Source: Sulfuracidifex tepidarius (lineage in GTDB: Archaea > Thermoproteota > Thermoprotei_A > Sulfolobales > Sulfolobaceae). Taken from it: DNA of 64,000 nt. The DNA lies in assembly GCF_008326425.1 (NCBI RefSeq), contig NZ_AP018929.1, positions 1,378,875 through 1,442,874 on the forward strand, given 5' to 3'. Below the pieces are notes generated by a model that was given only the letters and a program-made list of their open reading frames with translations, did not search any database and was not told the DNA's origin. Position numbers and translations under genes: made by a program. Positions 1 through 48,343 of this stretch are shown one piece after another (positions within the stretch are counted from its first letter, which is position 1; every line of letters starts with the position of its first letter).

Positions 1-256
1 CGGGAGTCTCTATGACTACCTTATGAAAGTTCATTGCTCCTCCACCTATTCCACCACCGAAACTTAGTCTCCTTTCGAAAATAACCGTCTTCTTGCCTGC
101 CTTCGCCAAGTAATACGCAGCGGTCATCCCCGAAGGACCGGCTCCTACTATTACTACGTCTGAATCGACAATACTCATCCAATCTTCCATTGTGTACTTT
201 ATGATGTATTGACTTATCTTTTTCTCATCAACCTGCTTTATCCTAATCTGTTCCAT
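1..256 (-). CDS. thi4: Thiamine thiazole synthase Thi4, 5' part only
   Basis: The gene runs off the left edge; about 85 N-terminal residues are present, starting at ATG 254-256. They show a Rossmann dinucleotide-binding segment ([21 protein letters not shown]) followed by [15 protein letters not shown], the signature of the Thi4 family. Archaeal Thi4 makes the adenylated thiazole carboxylate precursor of thiamine from NAD and glycine, with sulfide as sulfur source or with its own Cys as donor; the deciding residue lies outside the window. It shares a promoter-proximal element with thiC (46741), which supports a thiamine role. A generic FAD-dependent oxidoreductase is the alternative. Confidence 0.88.
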
Positions 257-270
257 AAGGAGAAGTCTTC

Positions 271-296
271 ATAACTAAGTTATAAAGTAACTTATA
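271..296 (-). promoter_or_regulatory. Thi-box: probable thiamine operator before thi4
   Basis: A 26-bp AT-rich element, 14 bases upstream of the thi4 start codon. It matches 24 of 26 positions of the element before thiC at 46704-46729. Its core is an inverted repeat TAAGTTA-N5-TAACTTA at 276-294. It overlaps the likely TATA and transcription start region, as expected for a repressor site. A thiamine-responsive repressor, ThiR (HTH joined to a ThiN domain), is known in archaea; linking it to this site is inference. Confidence 0.6.
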
Positions 297-345
297 AAAA
301 AGTAATCATTAATTAGTTTATTAATTACAATTACGAGTTATCTGC

Positions 346-46703: not shown

Positions 46704-46729
46704 ATAATTAAGTTATAAAGTAAGTTATA
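46704..46729 (+). promoter_or_regulatory. Thi-box: probable thiamine operator before thiC
   Basis: A 26-bp element 11 bases before the thiC ATG, 24/26 identical to 271-296 before thi4. Here the two half-sites TAAGTTA (46709-46715 and 46721-46727) form a direct repeat with a 12-base period, because one base differs from the thi4 copy. It overlaps the TATA-like TATATAAT (46701-46708). Confidence 0.6.
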
Positions 46730-46740
46730 CTAGGAGAGAA

Positions 46741-48037
<1,297 letters not shown>

Positions 48038-48057
<20 letters not shown>

Positions 48058-48343
48058 ATCTGAGTTCAAAACAGGGGAGAAGAAAGTAGTCAAAAACGGA
48101 GACACAGAAATTCTGGTAATTTACCTAGGAGGAAGCAGTTTTTATGCGGTAAATAACAAGTGCCCACACCTTGGGTGCAAGTTGGACAAGACAGGAGTAG
48201 TCATAAGAGAGGAACTCGTATGCCAGTGTCATTTCACTCATTTCTCTTTAAAGACAGGAGAGCCCAGAAGGGGAGCTACAAGAAGACCATTACCTATCTA
48301 TAAGGTTATTGACAAAGGAGACGAAATAGAAATAGAGACATAA
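48038..48343 (+). CDS. Rieske [2Fe-2S] ferredoxin
   Basis: A 101-residue soluble Rieske domain. Ligands are C42, H44 (KCPHLGC) and C62, H65 (CQCH). C47 and C64 match the disulfide pair of high-potential bc1-type Rieske proteins, absent from most Rieske ferredoxins. No signal peptide or membrane segment is seen. ATG lies 20 bases before the thiC stop, so it is translated from the thiC mRNA; it might pass electrons to ThiC or a related step, which is inference. Confidence 0.87.

Follow-up and report, generated by a model that had tools for sequence, protein, structure and literature searches.

Two near-identical elements in the 64-kb window (the whole 64,000-nucleotide stretch of Sulfuracidifex tepidarius DNA analysed here) directly precede the thiamine-synthesis genes thi4 and thiC, and they are very probably operators of a thiamine regulon read by ThiR, a dimer of which, with thiamine phosphate bound, would occlude the TATA box.

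Paired elements before thi4 and thiC

The genes, operators and promoter cores concerned are listed below, with operator scores from R1, a sequence-only profile of 44 sites from other genera from which the window's whole genus was held out; its E-values, here and further on, are rough because the calibration was shortened.

1-256, minus strand: 5' part of thi4, sulfide-dependent ADP-thiazole synthase (PF01946, E=7.8e-25 on the partial sequence)
271-297, minus strand: operator of thi4, 27-bp motif, TTATAAGTTACTTTATAACTTAGTTAT on the coding strand (window scan; R1 23.6 bits, rough E=1.6e-4, genome rank 1)
280-286, minus strand: TATA-like core TTTATAA of the thi4 promoter, within the operator (from the sequence; invariant in the family alignment)
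46704-46730, no strand assigned: operator of thiC, a near-dyad scoring best on the minus strand (window scan; R1 20.2 bits, rough E=0.002, genome rank 3)
46713-46719, plus strand: TATA-like core TTATAAA of the thiC promoter, within the operator (from the sequence; invariant in the family alignment)
46741-48057, plus strand: thiC, phosphomethylpyrimidine synthase (PF01964, E=2e-181; TIGR00190 and PRK13352 above cut-off)
48038-48343, plus strand: small Rieske [2Fe-2S] protein, overlapping the 3' end of thiC (PF00355, E=1.6e-14)

A preliminary description of this DNA had matched the elements ATAACTAAGTTATAAAGTAACTTATA (271-296) and ATAATTAAGTTATAAAGTAAGTTATA (46704-46729), at loci 46 kb apart, at 24 of 26 positions, and direct comparison bears this out. 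The distance of 11-14 bases to the start codons given there also holds, with measured gaps of 14 bases at thi4 (ATG 256-254, minus strand) and 11 bases at thiC (ATG 46741, plus strand), as do the identities of the two genes, which are firmly matched to the thiC and thi4 families and so to the pyrimidine and thiazole branches; the complete thi4 lies at L001:693-1481 and its full protein matches TIGR00292 with E=3e-97. The further statement that the two lie on opposite strands is correct for the genes but not for the elements, which both match in the same (+) orientation, so that the orientation of element relative to gene is opposite at thi4 and thiC. Each element forms a degenerate dyad some 27 bp long (ATAA-N5-TTATAA-N5-TTAT), and this near-symmetry makes the shared orientation understandable.

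Allowing up to three mismatches, the 21-bp core of the element occurs twice in the window, compared with 0.01 expected per window from dinucleotide shuffles. The same two matches, the thi4 and thiC elements, are the only ones in the 2,560,765-bp genome, throughout which the reversed control pattern of the core gave no match. At the centre of the element, TTATAAA is positioned at -25 (thiC) and -27 (thi4) from the ATG, around the distance at which the TATA box of a leaderless Sulfolobales promoter is expected, in agreement with the earlier suggestion that a protein bound there would block such a promoter.

A single motif across the Sulfolobaceae

We searched the upstream regions of thiC, thi4 and a gene for an MFS transporter in 31 Sulfolobaceae genomes with an ungapped Gibbs sampler, which returned a single 27-bp motif, ATATAA-N-T-N-A-S-TTTATAA-N-T-N-A-S-TTAT. 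The distance from its end to the annotated or aligned start is about 5-28 bp, and in the window's genus TTTATAA falls near -26. The MFS gene, which the preliminary description had not included, had been linked to the element through several matches of the 21-bp pattern in relatives, which sat 20 bp 5' of it. The three best R1 matches in the window's 2.56-Mb genome are those of thi4 and thiC (ranks 1 and 3) and, between them at 22.7 bits, the operator at 365586-365611 before the MFS transporter gene (L149, G000:C1:364301-365560), and the fourth-best match falls to 15.7 bits. This transporter is kept in 29 of the 31 genomes and probably carries thiamine or a thiamine precursor.

Across the family (31 genomes, about 74 Mb, with a limited number of first-look candidates scored per genome), all 69 R1 matches at E<=0.01 directly precede five kinds of gene, namely thi4 (24), the MFS transporter (24), thiC (19), one TenA gene and one methyltransferase gene, the last two being absent from the training set. 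In the held-out genus, 8 of 8 matches at this threshold are at thi4, thiC or MFS; in the other genera, training sites are among the true positives, and what is informative there is the absence of other matches. The element had been expected to turn up before thi genes in close relatives and to be rare before unrelated genes, and this is the pattern found, both in the genome ranking and family-wide. At E<=0.05, the scan of the 31 genomes found no R1 match in G003 or G012, and the genomes of genus g9 have sites at thiC and MFS with no clear site at thi4. We rejected the motif's occurrence outside the family, as the other genomes in a 147-genome sample of the order gave four stray matches at E<=0.01, located inside genes or 5' of unrelated genes. 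In this out-of-sample test a single DNA motif thus defines a compact vitamin B1 regulon throughout the family, and the R1 profile is specific enough for predicting new regulon members, such as the methyltransferase.

Sites of thi4 and thiC from one genus are more alike than those from different genera (P=0.01 by permutation), chiefly owing to G012 and the window's genus, and this likeness lends modest support. In G012 both operators are altered alike, reading ATTAACTwGCTAAT at thi4 and thiC.

ThiR and alternative readings

Three proteins with a PF10120 (ThiN) domain are encoded in the window's genome: ThiDN (L005), a stand-alone ThiN-like protein (L003) and ThiR (L004). The presence of an HTH-ThiN gene had been anticipated, and ThiR fits this architecture, with 303 residues (L004:1087-1998; genome 1,509,287-1,510,195), an N-terminal HTH (HTH-like helices at 20-52, where Pfam HTH matches fall below the curated cut-offs) and a C-terminal ThiN domain (PF10120, E=6e-45 at 139-294). 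With this gene encoded and the motif confined to thiamine-type genes, the earlier reading of a ThiR-type repressor gains support from the sequences. Full-length orthologues of ThiR are present in 30 of the 31 family genomes, the exception being G001, which is 71% complete. The mean pairwise identity of the orthologues is 75% in the HTH, 54% in the ThiN domain and 44% in the linker; a better conserved HTH is expected if the operator is itself conserved. The HTH of the G012 orthologue has KNYL in place of KQYL, alongside the altered operators of that genome. Within the ThiN domain, Arg179 (of the GRI motif), His200, Gly271 and Glu276 are invariant across ThiR, ThiDN and the stand-alone ThiN protein. 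The predicted structure of the orthologue from Metallosphaera yellowstonensis MK1 (L273, genome G019) has helices at 5-27, 32-39 and 43-51, after which comes a ThiN fold that matches the solved ThiN domains 2pb9 (TMt 0.83) and 2php. In the window's genome, neither thiR, which shares an overlapping start with a divergent NurA-domain gene, nor ThiDN, which follows a MoaD/MoaE-like gene in an operon, has an operator upstream; the regulon is therefore partial, and autoregulation of thiR was rejected.

According to the proposed mechanism, a ThiR homodimer with thiamine phosphate bound to its ThiN domain would cover the 27 bp at the TATA box and BRE, and bound ThiR would exclude TBP and TFB from the leaderless promoter. 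When thiamine phosphates are low, ThiR would be released and thi4, thiC and the MFS transporter gene would be expressed jointly. The outcome would be end-product repression of the thiazole branch (thi4) and the pyrimidine branch (thiC) as well as of uptake, and an operator placed on the TATA box would make this a simple promoter-occlusion design.

That ThiR is the binding protein in S. tepidarius, that thiamine phosphate is the effector and that the effect is repression rather than activation we infer. As ThiR is linked to the sites only through its co-occurrence with them, the make-up of the regulon and published results for orthologues, and as the family genomes carry motif and ThiR alike, so that presence and absence cannot tie the one to the other, the sites might be thiamine-regulon operators read by another DNA-binding protein, or ThiR might be an activator. 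We consider this unlikely, because the coverage of the TATA box by the operator favours repression and the HTH of ThiR is unusually conserved alongside the operator. Binding of such sites by the ThiR of a species of this family also speaks against it: Rodionov and colleagues reportedly tested ThiR from M. yellowstonensis MK1 by gel shift and found operator binding that depended on thiamine phosphate, which is said to be the co-repressor.

The conserved centre of the elements is a TATA box at -25/-27, and some lower-scoring matches, at an HdrC-like gene (15.7-17 bits) and at trpC in genus g5, resemble ordinary conserved promoters; both elements could on these grounds be strong TATA/BRE core promoters whose likeness comes from the TTTATAA common to Sulfolobales promoters at -26, with no regulator. 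We find this highly improbable. Scored with R1 on their flanks alone, after removal of the seven TATA columns, the two window sites still reach 21.8 and 15.2, far beyond the distribution of the 375 TATA-like cores in the window (mean -23.4, SD 10.1), among which the next-best flank-only score is 0.1, at a core overlapping the thi4 site itself. High scorers in the approximately 74 Mb are, moreover, restricted to thiamine-type genes. A shared TATA box alone was rejected on the flank-only scores. Recent repeat or mobile copies in an accidental position, as two near-identical 26-mers 46 kb apart might suggest, have a negligible chance of being the explanation and were rejected, since other genera have each element at the orthologous position as well and the likeness is confined to about 27 bp, with no wider repeat seen in the flanks.

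The trpC site of g5 was judged an ordinary conserved promoter and rejected as a regulon member. The HdrC-like iron-sulfur gene has its site at G000:C1:751438-751463 (L178), with orthologues at L222, L223, L226-L229, L235 and L236, and its conserved promoter reaches the above scores with the thiamine profile in g1, g3, g4 and g9; it is probably an ordinary promoter, the alternative being a weak thiamine-regulon target.

The ThiR operators of S. tepidarius constitute a well-supported further instance of the known ThiR regulon. As in the archaeal ThiR regulon, an HTH-ThiN regulator is accompanied by near-palindromic operators 5' of thi4, thiC and transporter genes in Sulfolobaceae, and this motif also precedes thi4 and MFS in M. 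yellowstonensis MK1; in contrast to that case, S. tepidarius belongs to a different genus and its ThiR is 51% identical to the MK1 orthologue. The 2017 study of the regulon (Rodionov, Leyn, Li and Rodionova, 2017, J Bacteriol 199:e00743-16) is cited in PMC12029414, and PMC10746257 terms the thiamine operon of Pyrococcus furiosus ThiR-regulated. The HTH-ThiN repressors of Haloferax volcanii share domain architecture and pathway with the S. tepidarius system (Hwang et al., 2017, J Bacteriol 199:e00810-16); they are euryarchaeal, unlike the S. tepidarius system. TPP riboswitches (the Rfam THI element) likewise exert thiamine-phosphate feedback on thi genes, but they are RNA-based, and leaderless genes leave no room for them. 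An Rfam scan of the window yielded two tRNAs only, with no TPP riboswitch or THI-box, and such control of the thi genes in the window was rejected. Possibly new are the MFS transporter and the patchily distributed methyltransferase as candidate members, and the retention of operators in a genus apparently without thiamine synthesis.

Candidate members and neighbouring genes

A class I SAM methyltransferase has an operator directly before its start in G025 (L061:1524-2204), G009 and G021, with further loci at L241, L242, L243 and L244, and weaker operator sites are seen in G022 and G003. Some copies are decayed, with an internal stop in G021 and a heavily degraded remnant in G001. The enzyme is a candidate new thiamine-related enzyme and a candidate, patchy member of the regulon. 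We tentatively suggest, with rather less than even confidence, that the regulon includes enzymes not yet tied to vitamin B1. These would be this methyltransferase, which several genera have directly behind the operator, and possibly also the Rieske protein; either may serve, so far unrecognised, in thiamine salvage or in support of ThiC.

In genus g8 (G009 and G017, the latter a draft of 190 contigs; L094, L150, L144), thiC was not found and thi4 is broken or fragmentary. Both genomes keep ThiR and the MFS operator, and G009 also keeps the operator at the thi4 remnant. The genus gives the appearance of having recently become auxotrophic for thiamine and of depending on uptake.

The Rieske gene at 48038-48343 is probably co-transcribed with thiC. 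It adjoins the 3' end of thiC in five genomes of two genera (g1 and g4) and is unlinked in the other genomes, and G011, G019 and G027 have an operator-like sequence about 50 bp 5' of it. It is tempting to speculate that the Rieske protein supplies electrons to ThiC.

The stand-alone ThiN-domain protein (L003:1432-2022; G000:C1 approximately 1,770,900-1,771,480) is encoded directly behind CobY- and CobS-like genes, neighbours that were named from sequence by eye, which suggests that it acts in cobalamin (alpha-ribazole) and not in thiamine synthesis. Divergent from thi4, at 346-1112, are genes for a small TRASH-domain protein and a UbiX-like flavoprotein, and the thi4 operator lies about 48 bp 5' of the first of this pair; the same divergent arrangement is seen in relatives (L045, L052, L055).
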